Positions 13,963 to 45,499 of a stretch of DNA of 64,000 nucleotides are shown piece by piece. The position numbers were made by a program, and so were the translations under genes. The notes beneath the pieces were generated by a model that saw only the letters and a program-made list of their open reading frames with translations, made no database searches and was not told where the DNA came from. Location of the stretch: NCBI RefSeq assembly GCF_900176565.1, contig NZ_FXEH01000006.1, forward strand, positions 930,001 through 994,000, written 5' to 3'. The first letter of the stretch is position 1; every line of letters starts with the position of its first letter. The stretch is from Thalassobacillus devorans. Its GTDB lineage: Bacteria; Bacillota; Bacilli; Bacillales; Halobacillaceae.

Positions 13963-14552
13963 ATTAAAGCTCCCTTTAATGGAAGACTCAGTTTCGAGAG
14001 AAACTGTTTCCGTTATGGTTGTGAGCGTTTGGAGGTCCGGGAAATCACTCGCTTTCCATGGGCGTACGGTGAGCTTCCTCGGGCTAAAGCCCTGCGGGAT
14101 TTCACCATGTACTATCCTCCCATAGGACTTTGAGTAAGCTTCTTGAATAGGCACCGCACGAAGAAAATGCATAGCATTTTCGAGGAGTCTCGCAATTTCC
14201 CGGCCCTCCTTGCGTTTTATGTGGAACGGAAACAGGTCAGCACGGAAGACTATAAAATGAAAAAAACGAGCTTTATGCCTCATCACAATCAAAGGGACAT
14301 TGGGGATATGGAAGACTGATCCGAGTAATACATGGGTCCGTTAACCTTCTTGATAGCTGGGTGGCGGGGAAACGGTGAGACTCCCGTGGGAGAAGGGCCC
14401 AGACGAGACCCCACAGGGAGTGAACGACCGAGGAGGCTTGGCGGCTCCCCCACAGGAAAGCGAGCCGTTTCCCAGTCGCCCTTACTCCTGGTTCGGCAAC
14501 GGACCTCAAAGTATCTCGAAATCAAGTCTTCGACTTTTCGGGCCTTTAGTGG
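13963..14552 (+). repeat. Two-module inverted intergenic repeat, copy A
   Basis: Largest copy of the family (about 590 bp). Imperfect terminal inverted repeats are GAAGACTCAGTTTCGAGA (13982-13999) and its partner TCTCGAAATCAAGTCTTC (14514-14531). The left module (about 14031-14209) and right module (about 14359-14481) are reverse-complement relatives: both contain ACTCGCTTTCC or its complement GGAAAGCGAG, plus the TCCTCGG and GGAGTCTC blocks. Each module can fold on itself, for example GGAGGTCCGGGAAAT against the AATTTCCCGGCCCTCC side. This copy has an extra segment in the left module containing the small hairpin AAAATGC/GCATTTT (14164-14180). Confidence 0.85.
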
Positions 14553-14644
14553 AATATACTTCTTAAGGTAAATCAAAAACAAGGATTTACATCCATAGAA
14601 AATTTATGAATAATTTATTGAAGAACAGTCAGAGATATTTTTCC

Positions 14645-14684
14645 AAAGCCGTACTATGTGAATGGGCATAGCTGCGGCTTTTTT
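14645..14684 (+). terminator. Orphan intrinsic terminator
   Basis: AAAGCCG (14645-14651) pairs with CGGCTTT (14675-14681), with an inner CTATG/CATAG stem, and six T follow. No gene lies between it and the end of spoVE 720 bp upstream. It may end a spoVE read-through transcript or an RNA from the repeat, or be left over from a lost gene. Confidence 0.7.
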
Positions 14685-15072
14685 CTGTATTAAAAGCTGA
14701 AAATAAAAGTATCATTAAAAAATCTGAAGTTTTTGCCACAGGGAGTCACAAAACGCGGGCTAACATGATAAAATGAAGGGGTGGATATATGTTTAATCGC
14801 TTTTCTTAGAGGGAACATGCAAACGGGTCTTAAAGGTGATAGCCTTGACGGCTAGGGATAACAACTTTACAGCCCAGGCTTCAATGCTTTGGAATGCCCC
14901 GTTTTTAGAATGGAAAAGCAGTTTGCAACAATTATTTCCAAAAGTTAAAAATAACGGAAGATGGATGGAAACTGTTGTATGATAGAGATATAACGAGCTA
15001 GCAGGAATGACTTTTCCTACATAGTATCCCATCTTCCCTGATATTGAACGATGTTAAGGGGAAATCATCATT

Positions 15073-15900
15073 ATGGAGAAAAAAAATATTGTTTCCATTG
15101 AAGATCGTATTCCGAAGCTGAAACATGCCAGGAAGAAGAAAGCGAACAGGCGCTTGATCTTTTATTTGACGATTTTGTTCTTGTTGATTGCGATCGTTGT
15201 GTATTTACAGTCCCCCCTTAGCCATGTAAAACAAGTGGCCGTAGAAGGAAATGTCCATGTCTCCGATAAGGAAATCAAAGAAATGAGTCATGTAACCGGG
15301 AAAGATAATTTCTGGAAAGTGGACAAGCAACAGGTAGAATCCGGTGTGAAAGGACATCCGGAAGTTGCAAAAGTCAGTGTTTCCAGAGATTTTCCGAACA
15401 CGATTACCATCCAGGTGGACGAATATGACCGCGTAGGCTACGTTAGAGTGGATGGAAGCTATTATCCGATACTGGAAAACGGCAAACGGCTGGACTCCTA
15501 TGAATTGCGTGTAACAAACGGTGACGCACCGCTTTTGCTTGACTTTGATAAAGCAACCTACCTGGAGGAAATGTCCAAGGAATTGCGAGAGCTTCCATCG
15601 AGTGTCGCTAATTTGATTTCTGAAATTCATTGGACACCTACAGATGACAATCCATTTCAAATTAAGCTTTATATGAATGATGGGTATGAGGTACAAGGGA
15701 CGATCAGGAATTTTTCAAAGAAAATGAGAGCATATCCATCGATCGTTACACAATTAAGTCCTGAAGATAAAGGGATTATTCATATCGATGTCGGCGCTTA
15801 CTTTGAATCTTATTCCGACACAGAGCAGGAAGGTTCCTCTGAAGTAGAAAGCAGCGGGGAAGATCAACAGGGAGAGAATGAAGATGAAGCTCAGGGGTAA
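15073..15900 (+). CDS. divIB: DivIB (FtsQ), cell division protein
   Basis: Bitopic divisome protein of 275 residues (B. subtilis 263). A basic cytoplasmic N-terminus (KHARKKKANRRL) precedes a membrane segment at about residues 28-46, then a POTRA domain (SHVKQVAVEGNVHVSDKEI) and the FtsQ/DivIB beta domain. The tail from about residue 245 is strongly acidic and Ser/Gln-rich. With FtsL and DivIC it regulates septal synthesis by PBP2B. It begins the second half of the dcw cluster after the gene-free gap, and its 3' end overlaps ylxW by 17 bp. Confidence 0.93.
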   Translation: MEKKNIVSIEDRIPKLKHARKKKANRRLIFYLTILFLLIAIVVYLQSPLSHVKQVAVEGNVHVSDKEIKEMSHVTGKDNFWKVDKQQVESGVKGHPEVAKVSVSRDFPNTITIQVDEYDRVGYVRVDGSYYPILENGKRLDSYELRVTNGDAPLLLDFDKATYLEEMSKELRELPSSVANLISEIHWTPTDDNPFQIKLYMNDGYEVQGTIRNFSKKMRAYPSIVTQLSPEDKGIIHIDVGAYFESYSDTEQEGSSEVESSGEDQQGENEDEAQG

Positions 15901-16585
15901 GCATGTTATTCTCGCTTTCGTCCTATTAGGGACCGGCTTTCTAGTCTCTTACAGCTATACACAAGCCGACGAGAGCTCCCAAATGGTAAAACTTGCTGAT
16001 CGTACCTGGGAGAAGGAATACTACTATCGAAAGCAACTGTTGGATTTAGAATCCAGGAACAAAGAACTAAGGGAAGAATTGCAAACGAAAACAGAAGCAG
16101 TTCAGACTTATGAAGATGATCTGGCTGCGAACGAGCAGCAAATTGCAGATTTTGTCGAACGGAAGAAAAGACTTCAGATGCTTACTGGACAATTGCCTGT
16201 AAAGGGACCTGGATTGAGGGTGACGCTAAAGGATGCAGCATATATTCCAAGTGAAGAGCATGCCAATAGTTATATCGTCCATGAACCTCACATCCATCAA
16301 GTAGTCAACGAATTAAAGAGTGCCGGTGCTAAGGCAATCGCGATTAATGGTCAGCGATACGTCAGCAACAGCTATTTCGCCTGTACAGGCCCGGTCATCA
16401 CAATAGATGGCGTTCAGCACCCCGCACCGTTCGTGATTACAGCGATTGGTGATCCTGAAGTATTGTTTTCCAGTCTATCTTTAAAAAATGGAGTAGTTGA
16501 TCAGCTTGTTACTGATAACATTGAAGTAGAGCTGGAAAAGTCAGCGGAAATCCAAATGGATGCCAGGCTTTCGAGTGAAGGGTGA
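15884..16585 (+). CDS. ylxW: DUF881 family protein (YlxW-like)
   Basis: A 233-residue membrane-anchored or secreted protein: N-terminal hydrophobic segment (HVILAFVLLGTGFLVSYSY), a coiled-coil stretch at about residues 40-95, then the conserved DUF881 domain (GPGLRVTLKDA, INELK-like VVNELKSAGAKAIAINGQR). The molecular role is not known; such genes sit between divIB and ftsA in Bacillus, suggesting a division link. The ATG at 15884 is favoured over the ATG at 15878 because GGGAGAG then has proper spacing. It forms a pair with the next gene. Confidence 0.85.
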   Translation: MKLRGKHVILAFVLLGTGFLVSYSYTQADESSQMVKLADRTWEKEYYYRKQLLDLESRNKELREELQTKTEAVQTYEDDLAANEQQIADFVERKKRLQMLTGQLPVKGPGLRVTLKDAAYIPSEEHANSYIVHEPHIHQVVNELKSAGAKAIAINGQRYVSNSYFACTGPVITIDGVQHPAPFVITAIGDPEVLFSSLSLKNGVVDQLVTDNIEVELEKSAEIQMDARLSSEG

Positions 16586-16590
16586 TTTTC

Positions 16591-17316
16591 TTGAGTAAAC
16601 GTACGAAATGGCTCATGTCATTAATTTTTGCCCTGGTTGGCTTCATGCTGGCAATCCAGTTTCAAACAGCCTCTTCCGAACCTGAGCTCCGCGATACACG
16701 TGATCAGTGGGAGATCAGACAGGCATTGCAGGAGCAGCAGAAACTACAGCAGGAATTACTGGAGCAAATCGCTCAGGCTGACCGGACGCTTGAAGAGTAT
16801 GGAGAAGTATCGGACGCTGAAAAACTGGAAACTTTAAAGTCCTCTATTCATCAATTAGAGCAGGAGGCTGGTTTAGCAGAGTTGGAAGGCAGTGGAGTCA
16901 TTATAACACTTGCTCCTATTTTCCAGGAGTGGGAAGAAGGGGCCCCAGCTTATCCTACTGTAAGTCCCTCTCTGTTGACGCATTTGATCAATGAACTGAA
17001 TACTTTTGGAGCTGCAGGGATCGGGGTAGGGGAGGAGCGATTCATCAGTATATCGCCTGTCCGTAATGTAAATGGAGAGACGTATATCAATAACCGCCCA
17101 ATGCCTCCTTTGCCGATTACGATAAAGGCCATTACCAGTAATCCCAAAAAGATGATGGATTACGTCAATGCGAGTCGCTCCAGGGATATGTTCGCCCTTG
17201 ATCAGATTGCCATGGAAGTGGAGGCAGAACAGCATATAGAGCTCCCGGGTTATGAAGATAACCTGCAGATAGACGTGCTCGAGCTGGATAGCAGTAAAGA
17301 AACAGGTGAGGATTAA
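16591..17316 (+). CDS. ylxX: DUF881 family protein (YlxX-like)
   Basis: Second DUF881 paralogue, 241 residues, with the same design: hydrophobic anchor (LMSLIFALVGFMLAIQF), coiled coil (about residues 35-95), and the conserved domain (LEGSGVIITLAP, LLTHLINELNTFGAAGIGVG). Function unknown. The TTG at 16591 is chosen because AAGGGTGAT lies about 7 bp upstream; an in-frame GTG at 16582 overlaps that signal. The stop overlaps the sbp start (TAATG). Confidence 0.83.
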   Translation: MSKRTKWLMSLIFALVGFMLAIQFQTASSEPELRDTRDQWEIRQALQEQQKLQQELLEQIAQADRTLEEYGEVSDAEKLETLKSSIHQLEQEAGLAELEGSGVIITLAPIFQEWEEGAPAYPTVSPSLLTHLINELNTFGAAGIGVGEERFISISPVRNVNGETYINNRPMPPLPITIKAITSNPKKMMDYVNASRSRDMFALDQIAMEVEAEQHIELPGYEDNLQIDVLELDSSKETGED

Positions 17317-17684
17317 TGTGGCTGCCATTTGTCTTTTTAATCATCGGAGTTATCCTGGGTCTGTTAACGGATCTGCGGGTACCGGACGCTTATACCGATT
17401 ACTTGACCATAGCGGTTCTTGCCGCTTTTGATACGCTATTAGGGGGAATAAGGGCACAATTAGAAAAGAAATTCGATGATATCGTGTTTTTGACTGGTTT
17501 CTTTACCAATGTATCCCTTGCTGCCTTGTTAGCATTCCTGGGAGTGCAGCTGGGTATTGACTTGTATCTTGCGGCAGTCTTTGCATTTGGTGTACGCTTA
17601 TTCCAAAATATAGCGATCATCCGAAGACATCTCATCACTCAAACGATCAATTCTAGAAAACTGAAAAAAAATCCGGAAAAATAA
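17316..17684 (+). CDS. sbp: Sbp, small basic membrane protein (DUF1290)
   Basis: A 122-residue integral membrane protein with three or four hydrophobic segments and a basic C-terminus (RRHLITQTINSRKLKK). The family signature is visible as DYLTIAVLAAFDTLLGGIRA. Its function is unknown, but it lies directly upstream of ftsA in Bacillus as here. GGTGAGGA precedes the ATG. Confidence 0.88.
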   Translation: MWLPFVFLIIGVILGLLTDLRVPDAYTDYLTIAVLAAFDTLLGGIRAQLEKKFDDIVFLTGFFTNVSLAALLAFLGVQLGIDLYLAAVFAFGVRLFQNIAIIRRHLITQTINSRKLKKNPEK

Positions 17685-17796
17685 GAGGAATATCACATCT
17701 ATCTGTGGAAACAGAACATGACTTGATTCTATTTCCATATTTCTAAGTGGAAAGAACCATATAGTATATCAATCTATTTACGAAACGGGAAATGGA

Positions 17797-17823
17797 TTGT
17801 ATTTTCTTCTTATATTCGATAAT
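17797..17823 (+). promoter_or_regulatory. Candidate sigma-A promoter for ftsA-ftsZ
   Basis: TTGTAT (17797-17802) and GATAAT (17818-17823) are separated by 15 bp, in the 183-bp AT-rich sbp-ftsA gap where B. subtilis also has ftsAZ promoters. Spacing is short, so another register, TAATAT at 17 bp, is possible. An AGGAATAT at the end of sbp resembles a sigma-H -35, but I could not support a matching -10. Confidence 0.5.
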
Positions 17824-17867
17824 ATTTGAACTATTCATATGCCTTTAGTGCAGGAGGTGCATCGCTT

Positions 17868-19172
17868 TTGAATCAGAATGAAATATTAGTAAGCTTAGAT
17901 ATTGGGACCACGCGGATTAAAGTGATTATCGGGGAAATCCTGAATGATTCCCTGAATATCATCGGCGTAGGTACCGCTAAATCAAAAGGAATGAAAAAAG
18001 GAGCCATTGTAGATATCGATCAAACTGTCCAATCCATCCGCTCAGCTGTCGAACAGGCGGAGAGAATGGTCGATATGAAAATAGATCGCGTCGTCGTCGG
18101 TGTCAACGGTAACCATATCCAGCTCCAGCCATGTCATGGTGTGGTCGCTGTTTCCAGTGATGACCGGGAGATCGGCGATGAAGATATAAAACGTGTCATT
18201 GATGCAGCACAAGTGATTTCGATACCACCGGAAAGAGAAATCATCGACGTCATTCCGAAACAGTTCATCGTGGACGGCCAGGACGAAATTACAGACCCAC
18301 GCGGTATGATTGGCGTCCGTCTGGAAATGGAAGGTACGATCATCACTTGTTCGAAAACAGTGCTACATAACTTGTTGAAGTGTGTGGAAAGAGCTGAACT
18401 GCAAGTGTTGGATATCTGCCTTCAGCCTTTGGCTGCAGGTACAGTAGCGTTATCAGATGATGAAAAAAATCTTGGGGTCGCTTTAATCGATATTGGTGGA
18501 GGCAGTACCACTGTTTCTGTATTTGAGGATGGCCACCTGAAAGGTACAAGCATGACGGCTTTGGGCGGAGACAACATTACGAAAGATCTCTCTATCGGTC
18601 TTCGGACATCAACAGAAGAAGCTGAGGAAATTAAAGTGGAACATGGCCATGCATTTTTCGATGATGCCCGTGAAGAGGAACAATTTGAAGTGACGATTAT
18701 AGGAAGTAATCGAAAACAAACATTCAATCAATTGCAGATTTCTGATATGATTGAAGCTAGACTAGAAGAGATTTATGTGTTTGCCGCTCAAGAGATTCAC
18801 AGAATGGGCGTAAAAGATTTGCCTGGAGGTTTTGTACTGACAGGAGGCTCGATGAGCATGCCTGGTGTCATGGAACTTGCCCAGGATATCTTCCATGCGA
18901 ATGTCCGTCTCGCTATTCCGGATTATATCGGGGTTCGCGAACCACAATTTACCAGTGGTGTCGGAATCTTGCAATTCGCTTATCGTAATGCGAAAATACA
19001 AGGAAAAGAGATTTTTCCATCCGTTCAGGTGGTGGATGCTCAACAGCCTAGACCGAAGAAACAGAAAAGAAGTACGCCAAAGCAGCAAGAGCAGCAGGAG
19101 AAACCTGTAAAAGAAGAAAAAGAGAAAAAGGAATCAGGATTATCCAATCTACTGAAATACTTTTTCGACTAA
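17868..19172 (+). CDS. ftsA: FtsA, actin-like divisome protein
   Basis: An actin-fold ATPase (434 residues) that tethers FtsZ to the membrane. It shows the phosphate-1 motif [12 protein letters not shown] near the N-terminus, phosphate-2 [15 protein letters not shown], and the adenosine motif [14 protein letters not shown] Gln/Lys-rich linker leads to the amphipathic membrane-targeting helix at the extreme C-terminus ([12 protein letters not shown]). The TTG at 17868 follows CAGGAGGTG at optimal distance and gives the Bacillus-like start; an upstream in-frame TTG at 17826 is unlikely. ftsZ follows after 74 bp. Confidence 0.96.
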
Positions 19173-19246
19173 ACAACGTTTCCTTCATAACTGACGAATG
19201 GAAGCTAAAATAAGTCTCGTAATCTTTGAACTGGGAGGAACGAAAA

Positions 19247-20416
19247 ATGTTAGATTTTGATACAAGCATGGACCAATTAGCAACGATAAAAGTTATTGGG
19301 GTTGGTGGCGGCGGAAGTAACGCTGTCAACCGTATGATCGAACACGGAGTACAAGGTGTAGAATTTATTGCAGTCAACACGGATGCGCAGGCTTTGAACC
19401 TGTCCAAAGCAGAAGTGAAAATGCAAATTGGCGGCAAGCTGACCCGTGGTCTCGGGGCAGGTGCCAACCCGGAAGTAGGTAAAAAGGCTGCTGAAGAAAG
19501 CAAAGAGCAGCTGGAAGAAGCGTTGCAAGGTGCTGACATGGTATTTGTCACGGCTGGTATGGGCGGCGGTACCGGTACTGGCGCAGCGCCTGTCATCGCT
19601 CAAGTGGCAAAAGAACTTGGCGCGTTGACCGTCGGTGTTGTTACACGTCCATTCACTTTTGAAGGGCGTAAGCGTTCTGTACAGGCGACAGGCGGTATTG
19701 ACGGGCTGAAAAGCGCCGTTGATACGCTCATTGTCATTCCGAATGACCGTCTATTGGAAATCGTCGACAAGAACACCCCGATGCTTGAAGCCTTCCGTGA
19801 AGCGGATAACGTGCTTCGTCAAGGTGTACAAGGTATCTCTGACTTGATTGCAGTCCCAGGTCTGATCAATGTTGACTTTGCAGACGTTAAAACCATCATG
19901 ATGGATAAAGGGTCTGCTTTGATGGGAATTGGAATTGCAACTGGTGAAAGCCGTGCGGTTGAAGCCGCTAAAAAAGCGATATCATCTCCACTATTGGAAA
20001 CATCCATCGATGGCGCCCATGGTGTCCTGATGAATATCACTGGCGGATCAAACCTGAGCCTTTATGAAGTACAGGAAGCTGCAGATATTGTAACTTCTGC
20101 TGCTGACCAGGAAGTAAACGTCATCTTCGGTTCCGTCATTAATGAAAATCTAAAAGATGAGATCGTAGTTACCGTAATTGCGACAGGTTTTGATGAAGCT
20201 CAGTTGAGCCAAAGCCAGTCCAAGCAGCGTCCAAATATGGGACAAATGGGCGGCGGTGTAAACCAGCAGCCACAACAGCCGGACCGTCTGGAAAGAAGAA
20301 GGGAAGAACCTCGTCACCAGGAAATGCCATCCCAGCAACGAGGTGGACAAGGTGGCCAGGAAGAAGACACACTGGATATTCCTACCTTCCTTCGTAACAG
20401 AAACCGTAGAAGATAA
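19247..20416 (+). CDS. ftsZ: FtsZ, tubulin-like cell division GTPase
   Basis: A 389-residue GTPase that polymerises into the Z-ring. The tubulin signature [11 protein letters not shown] lies at about residues 105-115, the N-terminal nucleotide loop is [13 protein letters not shown], and the catalytic T7-loop segment is in the [11 protein letters not shown] region. The C-terminus has a Gln-rich linker and the conserved peptide [12 protein letters not shown] that binds FtsA and SepF. The ATG at 19247 follows GGGAGG. Tandem terminators follow. Confidence 0.98.
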
Positions 20417-20465
20417 CTAATAAAATGAAGAGGACGACTTTCACAATCCCTCTTTAATATCAGTA

Positions 20466-20538
20466 AACCCACGAAGATTCCTTTCTTCGTGGGTTTTTCA
20501 GCTTGTAGAGAAACACCTGTTTTTCTACAAGCTTTTTT
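20466..20538 (+). terminator. Tandem intrinsic terminators after ftsZ
   Basis: First hairpin: AACCCACGAAGA (20466-20477) with TCTTCGTGGGTT (20484-20495) and a T-run. Second hairpin: AGCTTGTAGA (20500-20509) with TCTACAAGCT (20524-20533) and six T. Together they should stop ftsAZ transcription before the repeat and the spoIIG operon. Confidence 0.92.
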
Positions 20539-20559
20539 GCGTTGATAATAATTTTTTCC

Positions 20560-21095
20560 ATTAAAGCACCCTTTTGCTGAAGACTCAGTTTCGAGATAGT
20601 TTGTTTCCGTTACGGTAGTAACGGTGTGGAGGTCCGGGGAATCACTCGCTTTCCGTGGGCATGTGATGAGCTTCCTCTGGCTTCGCCTTGCGGGATCTCA
20701 CCGCTCATGTTCATCCCACTGGAGTCTCGCAATTTCCCGGACCTCCTTGCGTTTATGAGAGAAACGGAAACATCGGTATATCGTTCTTCAAATCAAGAGT
20801 GAGCTATGCATAAAATATGAGCTTAAAGCCGCGTCTTTATTCATTTATCCATTAAAAGTAGAAGACATCTGCAATATAACAGGGGTTCTTTTCTCCCATC
20901 CTTCGGATGGGGTGGATGGGAAACTGCGAGACTCCCGTGGGAGAAGGATCTAGGCGAGATCCCACAGGGCGATAGCCCGAGGAAGCTCGCCAGTTCCCCA
21001 CAGGAAAGCGAGTAGTTTCCCAGCCGCCCCTGACACTTTTATGGTAAAGAACCGGAGATATTTCGAAATCAAGTCTTCGACTTTTCGGCCTTTTT
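20560..21095 (+). repeat. Two-module inverted intergenic repeat, copy B
   Basis: Second full copy, same orientation as copy A. The terminal inverted repeats are GAAGACTCAGTTTCGAGATA (20579-20598) and TATTTCGAAATCAAGTCTTC (21059-21078). Left module is about 20628-20746, right module about 20911-21030. Reverse-complementing the right module aligns it with the left: ACTCGCTTTCC, GAGCTTCCTC, GGGATCTC and GGAGTCTCGCA occur in the same order and spacing. An extra hairpin CCGTTAC/GTAACGG lies at 20607-20624. The spacer between modules is AT-rich. No coding potential is credible. Confidence 0.87.
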
Positions 21096-21176
21096 GTAGA
21101 ATAAATGTTTTACGTAAATCAATAACTTAATGAACGACAAATTCGGCTAAAAAAAGTCTTCCCACCCCATCAGAAA

Positions 21177-21210
21177 GTGACAGACTTTTAGGAACAGCAT
21201 GTCTTATACT
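21177..21210 (+). promoter_or_regulatory. spoIIG promoter with 22-bp spacer
   Basis: GTGACA (21177-21182; five of six to TTGACA) and TATACT (21205-21210) are separated by 22 bp. The spoIIG promoter of B. subtilis is known for the same 22-bp spacing and its need for phosphorylated Spo0A with sigma-A. ACGACAAA upstream (about 21134-21141) resembles a reversed Spo0A box. The spacing and position are seen directly; Spo0A control is inferred from the B. subtilis case. Confidence 0.75.
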
Positions 21211-21246
21211 TGAAATCACCATTCAATAGAAAAGGAGAAAGAGGTG

Positions 21247-22158
21247 ATGATCTATCTTGATGCCGTATGGCTCCTTAATTTTTTAGTTGATGGAATGATT
21301 CTGATTATTACACAGGCAGTCACAAAGTCCTATGCTTCTATGAAACGAATGATGTTCGCTGCTTTAATAGCCTCCTTTATTGTACCGTTAACTATTTTTT
21401 TCCCAAATTCCTGGCTGGTCTCTCCCCTGGGAAAATTCGCCTATTCGTTACTCATTGTTCTGGCGGCCTTTCCATATAAGTCATTGCGCCTGTATATGCG
21501 TAATCTGACCACTTTTTACTTTGTGACATTTGCCATCGGGGGGACGATGTTTGCCAGTCATTTCTTTTTGAACATGAACGTGCAGATGGCGACTTCAGGT
21601 ATTGTGACGTTTTCAACAGGATATGGGGATCCAATTAGCTGGCTGTTTGTCATCATTGGCTTTCCGGCAGCATGGTGGTTTACAAAGCAAAGGCTGGAAC
21701 GGATTGCTGTGCTGAAATTGAAATATGAAGAAATTTATGAAGTGGTGTTGGAATGGAACGGTAAAAAAACAGTATCAACGGGTTTAGTTGACAGCGGAAA
21801 TCAGTTGGTTGATCCATTGACGAAAAAACTTGTCTTTCTAGGTGATGAGGAAGTTTTTCAAGCTTTTGTCTCGGAAGAAGATTGGACAGCACTTAAAGAA
21901 GTGGAAGAAACGTTCGACATTAATGGAATACCTGAACCCCTGCAGGATAGTATCCACTTTGTCCCTTATCAGGGTGCTGGAGGAGAAAGAAAATTGATGC
22001 TTGCTATCCAATTAAACAAAATCGAATTAGTCAGTGAAGGGAAAAACATATGCATGCATGCTCCGCTGCTCGGGATGCAATTCGGAAACATGACCGATGA
22101 TGACAGCTATCACGTACTTCTCCATCCAGAGATGATGCAGAAAGGAAAAGTAGCTTAA
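21247..22158 (+). CDS. spoIIGA: SpoIIGA, membrane aspartic protease that activates pro-sigma-E
   Basis: A 303-residue protein whose N-terminal half has about five membrane segments. Its C-terminal half is a retroviral-like aspartic protease domain with the catalytic motif LVDSGNQ (Asp at about residue 182). It sits in the septal membrane and cleaves pro-sigma-E after a signal from the forespore. The ATG at 21247 gives the family start M(I)[10 protein letters not shown]; a GTG overlaps just upstream, and AAGGAGAAAGAGG supplies the ribosome-binding site. sigE follows after 16 bp, forming the spoIIG operon. Confidence 0.96.
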
Positions 22159-22174
22159 AGGAAGGAGTAATGTT

Positions 22175-22894
22175 ATGAGCAAATGGAAGTTGAAATTACG
22201 CCTCTGGTATTATCGTATTTTATTAAAATTGGGATTGAAGACCAATGAAATTTACTACATAGGAGGAAGCGAGGCGCTTCCTCCTCCATTATCAAGAGAA
22301 GAAGAGGCAGAGCTCCTGAAACGGCTGCCGAAGGGGGATAAAGCTGCCAGAGCAATGCTGATTGAACGGAACCTTCGACTAGTCGTTTATATTGCCCGGA
22401 AATTTGAAAATACAGGATTAAATATCGAGGACTTGATTAGTATTGGTACGATTGGTCTCATCAAAGCGGTAAATACGTTCAATCCCGAAAAGAAAATCAA
22501 GCTTGCCACATATGCCTCCCGATGTATTGAAAATGAAATTCTGATGCATTTAAGAAAGAGTAATAAGCTGAAATCTGAGGTTTCTTTCGATGAACCATTG
22601 AATGTAGATTGGGATGGAAACGAACTACTGTTGTCCGATATTCTTGGAACGGAGGAAGACATCATTACGAAAGACCTTGAAGATAAGGTTGATAAACGGC
22701 TATTAAAGAAAGCGCTGGAACAGCTGAACGATCGTGAAAAGCAGATCATGGAGCTGCGTTTCGGACTGGTCGATAAAGAAGAGAAGACACAGAAAGATGT
22801 GGCAGACATGCTTGGTATTTCACAATCCTATATTTCCAGGCTTGAGAAAAAAATTATTAAAAGATTGAAGCGTGAATTCAACAAGATGGTATAG
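22175..22894 (+). CDS. sigE: Pro-sigma-E, mother-cell RNA polymerase sigma factor
   Basis: Sporulation sigma factor of the sigma-70 family, 239 residues. The amphipathic basic pro-sequence (about residues 1-27) ends in the cleavage region [15 protein letters not shown], with the Tyr27-Tyr28 bond placed as in B. subtilis. Region 2 ([31 protein letters not shown]) and region 4 helix-turn-helix ([20 protein letters not shown]) are intact. It directs early mother-cell genes after cleavage by SpoIIGA, encoded just upstream. Confidence 0.98.
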
Positions 22895-22948
22895 CACTTT
22901 AACGGACTTTTCCGAACGTATATTCTTATATAAGCGAGTTTAGCTAAT

Positions 22949-22977
22949 GCATATTATTCCCAGCCCGGGGAGATACT
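22949..22977 (+). promoter_or_regulatory. Candidate sigma-F promoter of sigG
   Basis: GCATA (22949-22953) followed by GGGGAGATACT (22967-22977) resembles the sigma-F pattern GYWTA and GGnnAnAnTw with a 13-14 bp spacer, about 40 bp before sigG. sigG depends on sigma-F in B. subtilis, which makes the site plausible, though the -10 has one mismatch in either register. Confidence 0.5.
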
Positions 22978-23012
22978 GAATTTTGAATAGCTTCCTGGGA
23001 GGGTTTAATACC

Positions 23013-23792
23013 GTGACTAGACATAAAGTTGAAATTTGTGGTGTAGATACATCTAAGCTTCCAGTACTTAAAAACGATGAAATGCGTGTTTTATTTAAAC
23101 GAATGCAAAGCGGAGACCAATCTGCCAGGGAGGAGCTGGTCAATGGCAACCTGCGTCTGGTGCTGAGTGTCATCCAACGATTCAATAATCGTGGTGAATA
23201 TGTCGATGATTTGTTCCAGGTGGGATGTATTGGTCTTATGAAATCGATTGATAACTTTGATTTAAGTCATAACGTGAAATTTTCTACTTACGCAGTTCCG
23301 ATGATTATTGGAGAAATACGAAGGTATTTACGGGACAACAACCCGATCCGTGTGTCGCGCTCGCTTCGTGATACCGCATATAAAGCGTTGCAGATGCGGG
23401 AGAAACTGATCAGTGAACGGTCAAAGGATCCGGCACCGGCTGAAATAGCTAAGGAAATGGGAGTCCCACACGAAGATGTTGTGTTTGCTATGGATGCCAT
23501 CCAGGACCCGGTCTCATTATTTGAACCAATCTATAATGATGGCGGAGATCCAATTTTTGTGATGGATCAGTTGAAGGATGAAAAGCATAAAGATTCGGTC
23601 TGGCTGGATGAACTCTCGCTTCGAGAAGGAATGAAACGGCTGAATGAGCGGGAAAAAATGATTTTGACGAAACGCTTCTTCCAGGGAAAAACCCAGATGG
23701 AAGTAGCAGAAGAAATCGGCATCTCCCAAGCCCAGGTTTCTCGTCTTGAAAAGGCAGCCATCAAAGAAATGAACACGACGATGTTCGAATAA
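23013..23792 (+). CDS. sigG: Sigma-G, late forespore RNA polymerase sigma factor
   Basis: A 259-residue sigma factor nearly identical to Bacillus sigma-G over regions 2-4: NLRLVLSVIQRFNNRGEYVD, GCIGLMKSIDNFDLSHNVKF, then VSRSLRDTAYKAL in region 3 and EVAEEIGISQAQVSRLEKAA in the region 4 helix-turn-helix. It controls late forespore genes. The GTG at 23013 with GGGAGGG upstream gives the conserved N-terminus TRHKVEICGVDTSKLP; an upstream TTG at 22983 lies in the leader. It has its own promoter region, 118 bp after sigE. Confidence 0.97.
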   Translation: MTRHKVEICGVDTSKLPVLKNDEMRVLFKRMQSGDQSAREELVNGNLRLVLSVIQRFNNRGEYVDDLFQVGCIGLMKSIDNFDLSHNVKFSTYAVPMIIGEIRRYLRDNNPIRVSRSLRDTAYKALQMREKLISERSKDPAPAEIAKEMGVPHEDVVFAMDAIQDPVSLFEPIYNDGGDPIFVMDQLKDEKHKDSVWLDELSLREGMKRLNEREKMILTKRFFQGKTQMEVAEEIGISQAQVSRLEKAAIKEMNTTMFE

Positions 23793-23830
23793 AGCCATGT
23801 TAAAAAGAAAATAAGTTCCAATATCTTTTT

Positions 23831-23868
23831 AGTTCAGTTTTGGTGTATGCCAGGGCTGAGCTTTTTTT
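23831..23868 (+). terminator. Intrinsic terminator after sigG
   Basis: AGTTCAG (23831-23837) pairs with CTGAGCT (23856-23862) with one G-T pair, followed by seven T. The 18-nt loop can pair further (GG with CC). It lies 39 bp after the sigG stop. Confidence 0.65.
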
Positions 23869-23924
23869 CGTGTGGTCAATCGCCAGTTACTTATGGCGAA
23901 GCCTTAGTATTTTTTTATTCTTTC

Positions 23925-23957
23925 ATACTTTAACAAAGTTAAACTTTCTTAAAGTAT
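23925..23957. other. 33-bp near-perfect palindrome between sigG and ylmC
   Basis: ATACTTTAAC-AAAGTT-A-AACTTT-C-TTAAAGTAT reads as 16-bp arms around a central A, with one mismatch (23934/23948). It has no T-run on the plus strand, so it does not look like a terminator for sigG. A second 15-bp perfect palindrome, TTACATAGTATGTAA, follows at 23987-24001, just before the ylmC ribosome-binding site. Their role is unknown; a protein-binding site or RNA hairpin is possible. Confidence 0.55.
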
Positions 23958-24019
23958 AAAAAAACTATCCATGTAATCAGCGTTTCTTACATAGTATGTA
24001 ACAAGGAAGGTGATAGGAT

Positions 24020-24286
24020 ATGATGATTTCAGAATTACAATTGAAGGATATCATCGCTCTGGAAACAGGAGAAAGACTAGGTCAAATCGCTGATTTAGAT
24101 ATAGATGTGAACACTGGCAAAGTTATTGCGATCATAATTACGCTAAAAGGGAAAATGATGGGGCTTTTCGGGAAAGATGAAGAGGCGGTGATTCCTTGGG
24201 ATCAAATTATTAACATTGGAACAGATGTAATTCTGGTAAAAAAACCTTTTGCACTTCCACCTCAATCGACAAATGAGATAGAATAA
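24020..24286 (+). CDS. ylmC: YlmC/YmxH family PRC-barrel protein
   Basis: A small soluble protein of 88 residues with a PRC-barrel fold: ISELQLKDIIALETGERLGQ, then KVIAIIITLKGKMMGLFGKD and a final strand VILVKKP. Members of this family accompany sporulation and division genes, but their biochemical role is unknown. AAGGAAGGTG precedes the ATG; a second ATG one codon later is equally possible. It sits between sigG and pgeF as in B. subtilis. Confidence 0.88.
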   Translation: MMISELQLKDIIALETGERLGQIADLDIDVNTGKVIAIIITLKGKMMGLFGKDEEAVIPWDQIINIGTDVILVKKPFALPPQSTNEIE

Positions 24287-24318
24287 TGGAATTATAACAA
24301 GAAATGTGACTGGTAATG

Positions 24319-24327
24319 TGGTAAAAT
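24319..24327 (+). promoter_or_regulatory. Candidate extended -10 promoter for the ylmD-ylmG genes
   Basis: TGG-TAAAAT (24319-24327) is an extended -10-like element 23 bp before pgeF in a 63-bp gap. No convincing -35 was found. It could supply vegetative transcription to pgeF-ylmE-sepF-ylmG. Confidence 0.4.
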
Positions 24328-24349
24328 ATAGGGCAACTGAGGTGGTAAT

Positions 24350-25174
24350 ATGACAGAACCGTTTTCGCATAAAGAGGATAGGGTATTCGTTATAGAAGAA
24401 TGGATGCAAGCCCAACCTAAGTTGCAGGCTGGTTTTACGAGCAGGAAAGGCGGCGTCAGCGCGCCGCCATATGCCAGTTTTAATCATGGCCTGCATGTAA
24501 ACGATAAGGAACAAGACGTCATCGCCAATCGTGAGCTTCTTGCTTCCTCCACGGGTATATCGTTAAACAAGTGGGTGATTGGGGAACAAGTGCACGGCAC
24601 AGAAGTCGCTGTTGTCAAGCGAGCAGATGGCGGAAGAGGAGCACGGGAACAAGGATCTTCTGTTAAAAACTGTGATGGCTTGATAACCAATACGCCAGGT
24701 TTATTATTGGCGGCTTTTTTTGCGGATTGTGTGCCGTTATACTTCCATGCCCCCAATGCGGGTTGGATTGGGATTGCCCATGCTGGCTGGAAAGGGACAG
24801 TAAACGGTATGGCTGCTTCTATGGTGGAAGCTCTTATCAATGAAGGAGCATCGAGGGAAGATATCCATGCGACCATCGGCCCTTCTATCAGTAAGAAACA
24901 TTACGAAGTGGATCAAAGAGTAATCGACAACATCGAAGATAAGTATATAAAATTAGTCACAGAACCGCGTAATGATGGAAAATTCCTGTTAGATTTGAGA
25001 GAATTGAATCGACTGATGCTAGTTGGAGCCGGCATCAAGGAACAGAACATTCGAATAACCGAGCATTGTACATACGAACAAGAAGACGTATTTTTTTCCC
25101 ATCGCCGTGATAACGGGAAAACAGGCCGAATGCTTGGATTCATAGGCTTTACTGATGGAAAAGGAGACGTGTAG
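24350..25174 (+). CDS. pgeF: YlmD/YfiH family multicopper-type protein (PgeF-like)
   Basis: A 274-residue cytoplasmic protein with the conserved metal-site residues of the DUF152 family: the His in GEQVHGTEV, the Cys in FADCVPLYF and the His in GIAHAGWKGT. Relatives have been described as purine nucleoside phosphorylases/adenosine deaminases, as laccase-like oxidases, and as peptidoglycan editing factor in E. coli. The role in Bacillaceae is unsettled. It is co-directional with ylmE after 1 bp and shares the cluster with the division gene sepF. Confidence 0.85.
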   Translation: MTEPFSHKEDRVFVIEEWMQAQPKLQAGFTSRKGGVSAPPYASFNHGLHVNDKEQDVIANRELLASSTGISLNKWVIGEQVHGTEVAVVKRADGGRGAREQGSSVKNCDGLITNTPGLLLAAFFADCVPLYFHAPNAGWIGIAHAGWKGTVNGMAASMVEALINEGASREDIHATIGPSISKKHYEVDQRVIDNIEDKYIKLVTEPRNDGKFLLDLRELNRLMLVGAGIKEQNIRITEHCTYEQEDVFFSHRRDNGKTGRMLGFIGFTDGKGDV

Positions 25175-25175
25175 C

Positions 25176-25844
25176 ATGAGTGTGGAATCAAATTGGCAGG
25201 AAATTCGTACAAACATCGCAGAAGCTTGCAGGAATTGTGGCAGAGATCTGAAAGAAATTACCGTCGTTGCCGTAACCAAATATGTATCGGTTGAAAGAGC
25301 CAGAGAAGCTTTGGCAGCCGGAATCATGGACCTTGGTGAAAACAGGATGAAAGGTTTTTTGGAAAAGTATCAAGCCATAGGGGATGATGCCACGTGGCAT
25401 TTCATTGGTTCGTTGCAGTCCCGGAAAGTAAAAGAAATCATTGGCGAGGTTGATTACATTCATTCGTTAGACCGGAAATCATTGGCGAAGGAAATCAACA
25501 AACGTGCCGAAAGTCCGGTTTCCTGTTATGTGCAAGTGAATGTAAGCGGCGAAGAATCTAAACATGGACTGGCCCTGGATGAGGTAGAAGAATTCATCGA
25601 GTGGCTGAAAGACTACCCGAATGTCAACGTAGTCGGGTTGATGACCATGGCCCCGCATGTAGATGATGAAGAAATGCTCAGAGGTACCTTCCGTAAGCTT
25701 CGGGCTATGCGCGACCGGATCAGGGACAAGCACTATCCGCACGCACCTTGTAAGGAGCTATCGATGGGGATGAGTAATGATTACAAGCTGGCGATTGAAG
25801 AAGGTGCCACCTGCATCCGGCTTGGATCCAGCCTGGTAGGCTGA
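25176..25844 (+). CDS. ylmE: YlmE, YggS family pyridoxal-phosphate homeostasis protein
   Basis: A 222-residue single-domain PLP-binding TIM-barrel protein. The PLP lysine lies in VVAVTKYVSVERA, followed by LGENRMKGFLEKY, WHFIGSLQSRK, VNVSGEESKHG and LSMGMSNDYKLAIEEG, all family signatures. It has no known catalytic activity and is thought to help keep PLP levels balanced. The ATG at 25176 is chosen over an upstream in-frame ATG (25155) that lies inside pgeF; AAGGAG lies 10 bp before it. Confidence 0.92.
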   Translation: MSVESNWQEIRTNIAEACRNCGRDLKEITVVAVTKYVSVERAREALAAGIMDLGENRMKGFLEKYQAIGDDATWHFIGSLQSRKVKEIIGEVDYIHSLDRKSLAKEINKRAESPVSCYVQVNVSGEESKHGLALDEVEEFIEWLKDYPNVNVVGLMTMAPHVDDEEMLRGTFRKLRAMRDRIRDKHYPHAPCKELSMGMSNDYKLAIEEGATCIRLGSSLVG

Positions 25845-25870
25845 TATTAAATGATTGAGGTGATGGAGAG

Positions 25871-26317
25871 ATGAGTATGAAGAATAAATTCAAATCATTT
25901 TTTACCTTAGACGATGAATATGAATATATGGAAGAAGAAGTGGAAGAATCGAACAAAAGTCAGCAAGTAAGTCAACCACAGAACTACCCGGAACAAAAAG
26001 CAAAAAATGTCGTCAGTTTAAAGAGTGCCCAGTCCTCTTCCCGAATGATGCTGTGCGAGCCGCGCAACTACAATGAGGCTCAGGATATTGCCGATCACCT
26101 CGTGAACCGTCGTGCGGTAGTCATCAATTTACAACGGGTTGACCATCATCAGGCGAAACGGATTGTGGATTTTTTAAGCGGGACCGTATATGCTATTGGA
26201 GGGGACATTCAGAAGCTGGGAATGCAAACGTTCCTTTGTACCCCTGATAATGTGGAAATTTCCGGGTCAATTTCGGAAATATTGGCACAGGAAGATGATT
26301 TAGACAGAAGGTGGTAA
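25871..26317 (+). CDS. sepF: SepF, FtsZ-interacting division protein
   Basis: A 148-residue cytoplasmic protein. It has an N-terminal amphipathic membrane-binding helix ([20 protein letters not shown]), a Gln/Ser-rich linker, and the C-terminal SepF domain ([32 protein letters not shown]). SepF binds the FtsZ C-terminal peptide, anchors and bundles FtsZ filaments, and shapes the septum together with FtsA. ylmG follows after 4 bp. Confidence 0.95.
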
Positions 26318-26321
26318 GGAA

Positions 26322-26585
26322 ATGCAGCAACTATTCGTTTTATTGACTAACGCAATACAAATTTACAGCTGGGCATTAATCATTTATATTTTTATGTCCT
26401 GGTTTCCTGGAGCGAGAGAATCGAAATTCGGTCAGTTCCTGGCGAAAATATGTGAGCCGTTTTTAGAGCCGTTCCGTCGTATTATCCCGCCGCTTGGTAT
26501 GATTGACATTTCGCCGATCGTTGCCATCCTGGTACTTAACTTTGCGAATATGGGATTGCGGGAACTCTATATCATGCTTATGTAA
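26322..26585 (+). CDS. ylmG: YlmG, YggT family membrane protein
   Basis: An 87-residue protein with two membrane segments ([20 protein letters not shown] and [14 protein letters not shown]) around the conserved loop [20 protein letters not shown]. The family is linked to cell shape and division genes in many bacteria and to chloroplast nucleoid distribution in plants; its mechanism is unknown. It ends the sepF group, followed by a terminator and repeat copy C. Confidence 0.9.
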
Positions 26586-26602
26586 TACTTATAACGACCA
26601 AC

Positions 26603-26628
26603 AAAGCTGCCACCGGCGGCTTTTCTTT
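26603..26628 (+). terminator. Intrinsic terminator after ylmG
   Basis: GCTGCC (26606-26611) pairs with GGCGGC (26615-26620), including one G-T pair, with a 3-nt loop and TTTTCTTTT after the stem. It lies 20 bp past the ylmG stop and before repeat copy C. Confidence 0.82.
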
Positions 26629-26675
26629 TGCTATTTACATAGTGGTTAACAGAATATACTGGACTTCCCAGATAA

Positions 26676-27212
26676 ATTAAAGCTCCCATTAACTGAAGAC
26701 TCAGTTTCAAGAGAAACTGTTTCCGTGCTGATGTTGAGCTTTCGGAGGTCCGGAAAATCACTCGCTTTCCATGGGCGTACGGTGAGCTTCCTCGGGCTAA
26801 AGCCCTGCGGGATCTCACCATGTACTATCCTCCCATCGGAGTCTCCAATTTCCCTGACCTCCTTGAATTTATAAGAGAAACGGAAACATTGGTATGTCGC
26901 CCTACAAGCATAGAGAGAGCTATTTATAAAAACGTGCTTATAATCTGTATCATCGGTCCATATGATTTGTGGAATACACCTTCATTTATTGCAGTGGTTC
27001 GTTTCTCTTATCTTTCGGATGGGGTGGTTGGGAAACTGCGAGACTCCCGCGGGAGAAGGGACTAGGCAAGACCCCACAGGGAGTGTAACGACCGAGGAGG
27101 CTTGCCGGTTCCCCCGCAGGAAAGCGAGTAGTTTCCCAGCCGCCCCTGACACTATTATGGTAAAGAACCGTAGATATCTTGAAATCAAGTCTTCGACTTT
27201 TCGACCCTTTTG
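26676..27212 (+). repeat. Two-module inverted intergenic repeat, copy C
   Basis: Third full copy, same orientation as A and B. Terminal repeats are GAAGACTCAGTTTCAAGA (26695-26712) and TCTTGAAATCAAGTCTTC (27177-27194). In the left one, C of the TTTCGAGA motif has become A, and the right one carries the matching change (TCTTGAAA for TCTCGAAA). Left module is about 26744-26862 and right module about 27021-27146. The left module is closest to copy A (GGGCGTACGGTGAGC), the right module closest to copy B. It fills nearly all of the 722-bp ylmG-ylmH gap. Confidence 0.87.
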
Positions 27213-27307
27213 GTGAATAGGTCACTATGGTAAACCAATAACACTGTTAACAGCTATTAGTTTAATCATGCAGTCTGGTTTTATAATTTTGGAGTGGAGA
27301 GATAGAA

Positions 27308-28710: not shown

Positions 28711-28754
28711 TCATTAACATGAAATATTTCTTGCAGCAACTGAATATTTAACGA

Positions 28755-29003
28755 GAAACGATGACAGGGAAAGTACTTAAGCCCGCTTGCAGCTTAAGCG
28801 ATCCAGGGATGGTGAAAGCCTGGAGCAGCGCCTTGAAGGAAAATCACCCTCGAGTTTTCCATTCGAAAAGCAATGAGTAGAGATGGACGCCTTATCCACG
28901 ATACGGATCAACAGAGCGGAATCGGCATGTGTAAAAGCCGGTTCTACAAGGGTGGTACCGCGAGATCCTCTCGTCCCTTTAGGGATGTGAGGGTCTTTTT
29001 TAT
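28755..29003 (+). promoter_or_regulatory. T-box riboswitch (tRNA-Ile sensing) in the ileS leader
   Basis: The invariant T-box sequence AAGGGTGGTACCGCG lies at 28948-28962. A stem I region precedes it with GGTGAAAGCC; ATC at 28843-28845 lies in a likely specifier loop and fits isoleucine, which agrees with the downstream gene. The terminator GATCCTC/GAGGGTC (28964-28995, T-run to 29001) overlaps the antiterminator half. Uncharged tRNA-Ile should favour read-through. The specifier assignment is by eye. Confidence 0.93.
28964..29001 (+). terminator. T-box regulated terminator of ileS
   Basis: GATCCTC (28964-28970) pairs with GAGGGTC (28989-28995), with an inner TCCC/GGGA stem and six T (28996-29001). 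Its 5' arm follows directly after the T-box sequence, the standard arrangement for antitermination. Confidence 0.9.
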
Positions 29004-33413: not shown

Positions 33414-33434
33414 CAATTAAAGAATTGAATATGA

Positions 33435-33531
33435 CCTTTAAAGACAGTCCTGTGAGGCTGAAAAGGAAACGGAGCATATGATTATGTTACTTACACCCTT
33501 TTTCTGCCCTCATGCAGGAAAAGGTTTTTTT
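33435..33531 (+). promoter_or_regulatory. PyrR attenuator 1 (pyr leader, before pyrR)
   Basis: The PyrR-binding loop TCCTGTGAGGCT (33448-33459) sits in an anti-antiterminator hairpin closed by CCTTT (33435-33439) and AAAGG (33462-33466). The AAAAGG arm can instead pair with CCTTTTT of the terminator, forming an antiterminator. The terminator CCTTTTTCTGC/GCAGGAAAAGG (33497-33524) ends in seven T. UMP-bound PyrR should stabilise termination. Confidence 0.92.
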
Positions 33532-33542
33532 AATAGGCCTGA

Positions 33543-34106
<564 letters not shown>

Positions 34107-34117
34107 ATAAAACAGCA

Positions 34118-34225
34118 CCTTTAAGTAAGTCCAGAGAGGCTTAAAAGGTCGCAAACTCAGAACGTATCGAAGCATACCAGGATACGTCCACCTCTTTGCG
34201 GTTTTTTAAGCAAAGAGGTTTTTTT
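34118..34225 (+). promoter_or_regulatory. PyrR attenuator 2 (between pyrR and pyrP)
   Basis: The PyrR-binding loop TCCAGAGAGGCT (34130-34141), identical to the B. subtilis consensus, lies in a hairpin closed by CCTTTAAG and CTTAAAAGG arms. The terminator CCTCTTTGC (34191-34199)/GCAAAGAGG (34210-34218) ends in seven T. Confidence 0.93.
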
Positions 34226-34269
34226 ATACCTTTAAAAAATGGCTCTAAATAATAAAGGAGGAAATGATT

Positions 34270-45295: not shown

Positions 45296-45363
45296 AACTC
45301 CCTGTTTCCGTTACGTTAGTAACGGCAGGTAAACATCTCGAAATCAAAGTCTTCGACTTTTCG
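45296..45363 (+). repeat. Short internally deleted derivative of the intergenic repeat (copy D)
   Basis: It keeps CCGTTAC-GTTA-GTAACGG (45307-45324), as in copy B, joined directly to ATCTCGAAATCAAAGTCTTC (45335-45354), the right terminal repeat with one extra A. Both large modules and the spacer are missing. It lies just after pyrE, matching the habit of the full copies to sit at operon ends. Confidence 0.75.
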
Positions 45364-45499
45364 TTGGTTTAATTGAATAATTTTTCTTATGCACACACCG
45401 AAAGGTTTTTCAGGGATAGAGACAGTTGAGTTGTGCTGAGGGCTTGAGTTATGTACCATATAGTGTATATAGACATCAGAGCGACAATGGTGGTGCATA

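Follow-up and report, generated by a model that had tools for sequence, protein, structure and literature searches.

Intergenic repeats of Thalassobacillus as probable old copies of a transposable element with IS1595-type ends

Small non-autonomous transposable elements and foldable intergenic repeats have been described in several prokaryotes. An IS1595-derived miniature inverted-repeat transposable element (MITE) of H. walsbyi is 165 bp long, with an inverted repeat of 25 and a direct repeat of 8 (PMC3852290). The bcr1 repeat, which is foldable, MITE-like, intergenic and 147-167 bp long, is specific to the B. cereus group according to a title cited there (PMC2267715, PMC3733652), and Bhal-1 is a stem-loop family of Bacillus halodurans with a length of 74 bp and 36 copies (PMC2267715). 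Repetitive extragenic palindromic (REP) elements are targeted by insertion sequences (ISs) of the IS110 family, namely IS621, ISPa11 and ISPpu9/10 (PMC1525189). The locus compared here with these systems lies in Thalassobacillus devorans: the window (the whole stretch of DNA that was analysed, 64,000 nucleotides, G000:C4:930001-994000, G000 being the own genome of 4.07 Mb) holds three repeated elements at the spoVE, ftsZ and ylmG sites, which carry gene names taken from the original prediction. That prediction left the kind of repeat unnamed; IS1595-type ends and 8-bp target duplications point to a transposable element, and we put the probability that the three elements are old copies of a non-autonomous one, a MITE with IS1595-family ends, at roughly 0.92.

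Ends, target duplications and autonomous relatives

The 8-bp target duplication by which an IS1595-family MITE is recognised is found in three copies (L002, L003 and L010) and at 25 of 80 loci listed from named genomes, and is supported by an empty site. The best-kept copy, L003, is 619 bp long, with perfect 12-bp inverted ends (GGCTCTGTTAAA...TTTAACAGAGCC) and ATTTTTTA on either side. In L010, TTAAAAAA is duplicated and one end has one mismatch, and in L002, AATTTATT is duplicated and the ends are worn; all three were read by eye. The site occupied by L003 is continuous in G004, a sister species, with a single copy of the target, one base different, and 92% identity over 400 bp. In G001 and G002, the target is present without the element and similarity in the right flank resumes further on, while for G003 no alignment across this site was found.

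The named loci come from a scan of the named genome contigs for GGCTCTGTTAAANNNNNNTGTTGATTTT, which gave at least 120 stretches, 80 of them used as named loci. The 25 positive loci combine an exact 8-bp repeat with a partner end (up to 3 mismatches), a combination found at 0 of 80 loci with a reversed 12-mer as control. Their 8-bp repeats are 95% A+T, and their lengths range from 88 to 2562 bp, ten of them being 175-199 bp. The same ends also bound forms of 182-185 bp that carry a single module, as matched by the module model described below, in Mesobacillus, Metabacillus, Cytobacillus, Calidifontibacillus and Bacillus sp.

Terminal repeats of this type are common to autonomous IS1595-family ISs (L140, L071, L186 and L188). 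An IS1595 transposase (PF12762) lies between GGCTCTGTTAAA-type ends in L140 (1857 bp, AAAGATAA) and L071 (1543 bp, TTATATAA), and between the same ends in L141 (2270 bp), where the repeat has one mismatch. Within the window's family, PF12762 is found between these ends in L186 and L188, with 8-bp repeats TTAAATAA and AATTCTTT; at a third family locus, L187, one end only was found. In three further loci (L084, L128 and L068), the same ends and exact 8-bp repeats surround other genes, with no intact transposase, in an arrangement that resembles a mobile cassette.

Copies, modules and their fold

The three elements lie where the original prediction placed them, in one orientation (Table 1). Elements 2 and 3 are 78% identical over 544 bp (556 alignment columns, E = 9e-123), and element 1 aligns with both in blocks (BLAST within the window). 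Open reading frames (ORFs) of at least 80 aa touch elements 1 and 3 only (81-117 aa) and leave element 2 free, and a transposase gene is absent from the element, as in MITEs generally. The conserved blocks are real, and so is the predicted layout, with a terminal repeat at either end, a left and a right module, and an AT-rich spacer between the modules. Over 28 full-size copies, conservation averaged by column reaches 0.91 for the left and 0.88 for the right module, and falls to 0.67 for the spacer and to 0.42-0.43 immediately outside. The true ends, as L003 and L010 indicate, lie some 30-40 bp beyond the predicted limits and are decayed in the window copies.

The genome carries at least 41 element loci, of which 28 are 480-640 bp long and the rest shorter, broken or interrupted; there are also weak loci (L054, L055, L058, L060 and L063), and element 2 as query gives 106 matches, cross matches between arms included. 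The original prediction, that these repeats form a family, was to be given up if the genome held no further copy, and is confirmed: the three window elements are old copies of a dispersed family. DNA matches occur in 26 of 41 genomes (own included) and 10 of 22 genera; a search for plasmid-borne carriers gave a single weak partial match. In the genus (five genomes), the ftsZ site holds an element or relic in two genomes, and the spoVE and ylmG sites each hold one in three. A group II intron (RVT_1 + GIIM; reverse transcriptase/maturase, L204:57-1199) adjoins the relic that G002 has at its ylmG site. G002 is assigned to T. devorans, and 7 kb of T. devorans MSP14 (L123) are 100% identical to it.

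Both predicted modules are real, with one correction: the right one is a copy of the left that is inverted and has diverged. A covariance model built on the right module (R1) matches the left modules on the opposite strand, and by this comparison the two are inverted relatives of one fold of about 130 nt. Compensating changes, which the original prediction had proposed to look for with such a model, are present in both modules. In the right module core (alignment A1, 29 rows), 12 of 41 predicted pairs have double changes, as against 0-3 pairs when the structure is slid, and 0 of 500 shuffles score as high by pairs or by cells. In the left module core (A2, 34 rows), the corresponding values are 6 of 37 pairs, 1-3 pairs and 0 of 500 shuffles, with an ordinary count of further pair types (316 of 500 shuffles). 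Because the rows of A1 and A2 stem from two species whose copies seem to exchange sequence, these events are not independent. Before counting, modules outside the length limits were dropped, as were rows with 95% or more identity to one already retained and non-redundant rows with a core that was too short or could not be recovered by exact string. Of 40 right and 41 left rows, 30 and 35 were left; L051 (right) and L025 (left) were then removed by hand as rearranged.

In A4, an alignment across genera with 28 rows, 34 of 41 pairs show double changes, as against 14-22 in slid structures, and double changes outnumber single-sided ones by 251 cells to 33. Not all of its rows are independent, since the modules of L123, L242, L243 and L244 enter it in both strand readings, and it was fitted to the model. 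Run over 81 sources, R1 gives 46 matches at E up to 1, of which the weakest are at chance level; among them are loci of Sutcliffiella, Metabacillus, Alteribacter, Cytobacillus, Mesobacillus, Neobacillus, Calidifontibacillus and several Bacillus sp., in agreement with the earlier remark that similar GC-rich motifs occur in other Bacillaceae. Across the order, the module is found in 83 of 120 genomes (own included) and 52 of 74 genera (E up to 0.001, model E-values being rough); scoring was limited to 28 candidates in each genome, which makes the copy numbers lower bounds. Rfam has no match over the elements at gathering score, and at E up to 1 gives a single hit (E 0.28), outside them.

Table 1. 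Features of the repeat family in the window (window positions) and IS110 copies in the own genome (contig positions)
Feature	Position	Strand	Remarks
Element 1 core	13963..14556	+	extra ~60 bp in left module; terminal inverted repeat ends decayed
Element 1 left module	14049..14131	-	partial match of module model, 31.5 bits
Element 1 right module core	14356..14484	+	module model, 136.5 bits
Element 2 core	20560..21103	+	orthologous site: element in G004, none detected in G001, G002, G003
Element 2 left terminal segment	20560..20601	+	imperfect inverted repeat of right terminal segment
Element 2 left module	20602..20773	+	structured core 20625-20749, matched by model R1 on minus strand
Element 2 spacer, AT-rich, variable	20774..20880	.	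column conservation
Element 2 right module	20881..21081	+	structured core 20907-21032
Element 2 right terminal segment	21060..21103	+	AAATCAAGTCTTCGACTTTT block
Element 3 core	26676..27219	+	element in G004, relic in G002, none detected in G001, G003
Element 3 left module core	26741..26865	-	module model, 73.5 bits
Element 3 right module core	27019..27148	+	module model, 151.3 bits
Short relic, terminal pieces of same repeat family	45303..45389	+	BLAST within window
IS110 copy L236	C4:14323-16058		G000
IS110 copy L237	C2:300143-301878		G000
IS110 copy L238	C1:935275-937010		G000
IS110 copy L239	C1:784884-786619		G000
IS110 copy L240	C1:969043-970772		G000

Elsewhere in the window, Rfam detects an ordinary T-box leader (28752-28981) and two PyrR binding sites (33431-33532 and 34114-34227).

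Mobilisation, exchange between sites and alternative readings

The ends, the target duplications, the empty site, the autonomous relatives with the same ends and the covariation can be read directly from the sequences. Because end type, repeat length and target composition agree, we infer that an IS1595 transposase acted in trans. Such a transposase would recognise the ends of about 12 bp (GGCTCTGTTAAA) together with a subterminal TGTTGAT, and would insert the element at AT-rich sites, duplicating 8 bp of target; two inverted copies of the folding module lie between the ends. With no transposase source found in the genus, copies would lose their ends and interiors would be homogenised by gene conversion between sites. 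The fold may be kept because it helps the element to persist, whether as a folded transcript or as single-stranded DNA during transposition or replication.

Twelve sites carry an element in both G000 and G004, 11 of them identified by both flanks (90-98% identity), plus the ylmG site. Seven of the 24 modules at these sites are not comparable; of the other 17, 15 are closer to the best G000 paralog than to the orthologous G004 copy (the exceptions are the left module of L045 and the right module of L021), in a comparison that pits one ortholog against the best of many paralogs, with some ortholog values lowered by deletions. The pair L215/L021 is nearly identical over most of its length. The modules of L013 and L014, two distant elements, are the stronger evidence, because the general comparison favours paralogs in these two ways: they are 98.5-98.8% identical to each other and 58-86% identical to their orthologs (G004 counterparts L221 and L209), each has its right junction in common with the G004 copy, and the flanks of the two sites differ. 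Gene conversion between dispersed copies is the simplest reading of the near-identical interiors, and a likely one; re-insertion at the same base is less likely.

Several points weigh against mobilisation and exchange as set out here, the bias towards paralogs, the lowered ortholog values and the L215/L021 pair among them. The length of about 620 bp is at or above the usual MITE size. Most copies have decayed ends, and the three window copies, which are among these, have no clear ends or target duplications. PF12762 was found in 0 of 5 genomes of the genus, own included, and in only 2 of 44 of the family (G012 and G014), so no autonomous partner was found in the same genome, the copies of the genus look orphaned and the case for mobilisation here rests on relatives; such a partner is not strictly required for a MITE and can be lost. 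The module model has no match up to E = 1 in L140, L071 or L141, and by this comparison the interior of the element is not a deletion product of an IS1595-family IS. Finally, the breadth of the module suggests more than a passive passenger.

It may be, although we would not bet on it, that the modules are structured RNAs in the flanking transcripts, such as 3'-end protectors, processing sites or insulators, and that the transposon is a vehicle only. The strong base-pair covariation would fit such a role, as would wobble pairs in the right module, where on the plus strand G.U outnumbers A.C by 15 pairs to 2 in the union of both-strand structures and by 9 to 0 in the shared pairs; the left module, however, has no such asymmetry (8:8 shared, 8:10 union). 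The direction for shared pairs agrees in G014 (3:1), G148 (3:0) and G078 (4:0), but none of these is significant singly (sign p 0.625, 0.25 and 0.125), and the covariance model used to pick the copies in these genomes gives G.U preference over A.C. Similarly, the predicted shared orientation survives as a leaning in the own genome, where the 41 loci include 30 tandem contexts and 23 of these are co-directional (p = 0.005 on crude ORF calls), but is not seen in the same three genomes (6:5, 6:6 and 6:10; 20 loci each, context around the right module only, crude ORF calls). Terminator-like sites between 13900 and 27300 number 12, against 12.0 in shuffles. RNA-level selection on the fold is possible.

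The orientation leaning was dropped as a sign of transcription, given the three genomes that lack it and the 11:6 ratio of non-orthologous copies in G004 (p = 0.33). Terminator function was rejected as well, there being no excess of terminator-like sites over the 13.4-kb region, with one of the 12 inside element 1.

Pairing could also be maintained without selection, by template switching at quasi-palindromes (palindrome correction) combined with gene conversion between copies, which we consider rather unlikely. The modules are quasi-palindromic, double changes in A4 far exceed single-sided ones and interiors look exchanged among copies, all as this process would predict. However, many unpaired and internal-loop positions are invariant too, which correction leaves unexplained, and the module is matched in 52 of 74 genera while the spacer varies even inside the own genome.

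That the whole element acts as one giant left-right hairpin, for example as a cruciform or a REPIN-like pair, is highly improbable. The two arms are related by inversion, and in elements 2 and 3 the minimum-energy fold largely pairs them, but in element 1 it pairs mostly inside the modules. Single-module forms are common, and own arms are no more alike than foreign arms, either in 33 elements of the own genome (mean score 116.95 against 117.37, a value reached in 1304 of 2000 permutations) or in 23 of G004 (707 of 2000). As a selected unit, the giant hairpin is rejected by this permutation test of arm similarity, and since the arms of one element are no more alike than foreign arms, the conserved unit is each module. 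The earlier interpretation, a repeat family with folded parts under selection, is partly supported: further copies are many and covariation is strong, but it recognised neither the transposable nature of the element nor the separate folding of the modules.

IS110 insertions and comparison with known systems

An IS110-family IS (PF01548 + PF02371) is present in five copies in the own genome, four identical and one at 99%. All five left junctions lie after GAGACTCCC of a module, and the right junction was seen for all five. Both halves of the target, GCGAGAC and GCGGGAGAA, recur in the 357-nt non-coding tail of this IS. Their starts are separated by 25 nt and the predicted fold places a small hairpin between the two, an arrangement similar to that of a bridge RNA target loop. 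Among 20,000 random tails of equal dinucleotide composition, 45 perform as well under a rule set after the pattern had been seen, and a few shorter 7-mers of the tail match too, at chance level. A second, different IS110-family IS lies inside another element copy (L055:564-2603).

These observations could be drawn together if the module were a genuine functional nucleic acid, a folded transcript or single-stranded DNA signal, that has become domesticated cargo spread by IS1595-type ends, doubled in the window's family, kept uniform by gene conversion and used as the programmed target of an IS110 bridge RNA. We regard this as a tentative extension, with the odds against it. The identification as a mobile element would give an identity to an intergenic repeat found across much of a bacterial order and would account for its hairpins, its ends and its spread. 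It makes the function of a MITE's internal fold open to test, as well as the idea that evolution adapts IS110 bridge RNAs to MITE folds as safe places to land, and it offers a natural case of apparent gene conversion between dispersed repeats of about 600 bp.

No description of the element family was found in the open-access literature searched, as represented by titles, the beginnings of abstracts and passages, with ISfinder outside its scope. Element sequence strings returned only unrelated papers among the matches listed. A review of prokaryotic MITEs (PMC10969869) contains none of the terms IS1595, Bacillus, Bacillaceae, Halobacillus, REPIN or IS110. A match to a described family, which the original prediction had named as grounds for abandoning it, thus came neither from Rfam nor from this literature, although this falls short of exclusion.

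The closest likeness is to IS1595-family ISs (PF12762), which have the same ends, the same subterminal motif and the same 8-bp target duplication; the element differs in carrying no gene for a transposase and in its modules, of which the three named IS1595 loci searched gave no match. The MITE of H. walsbyi (Haloquadratum) is likewise non-autonomous and has 8-bp repeats, whereas the Thalassobacillus element is about 620 bp long, has two covarying modules and occurs in Bacillus-like hosts. Compared by description only, bcr1 is similarly foldable, MITE-like, intergenic and from Bacillaceae, and Bhal-1, a repeated stem-loop in a Bacillus, may be a fragment of the same family. The IS110-family ISs that target REP elements are alike in having a fixed insertion point in a repeated palindrome; here, the target is the folded module of a transposable element in a Bacillus relative. 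For REP and REPIN sequences with RAYT (Y1 type), the 8-bp duplications and IS1595 ends point elsewhere. Among these systems, the mechanism of spread is ordinary, and what is unusual is the pair of strongly covarying modules, their breadth, the apparent homogenisation and the use of the module as an IS110 landing site.

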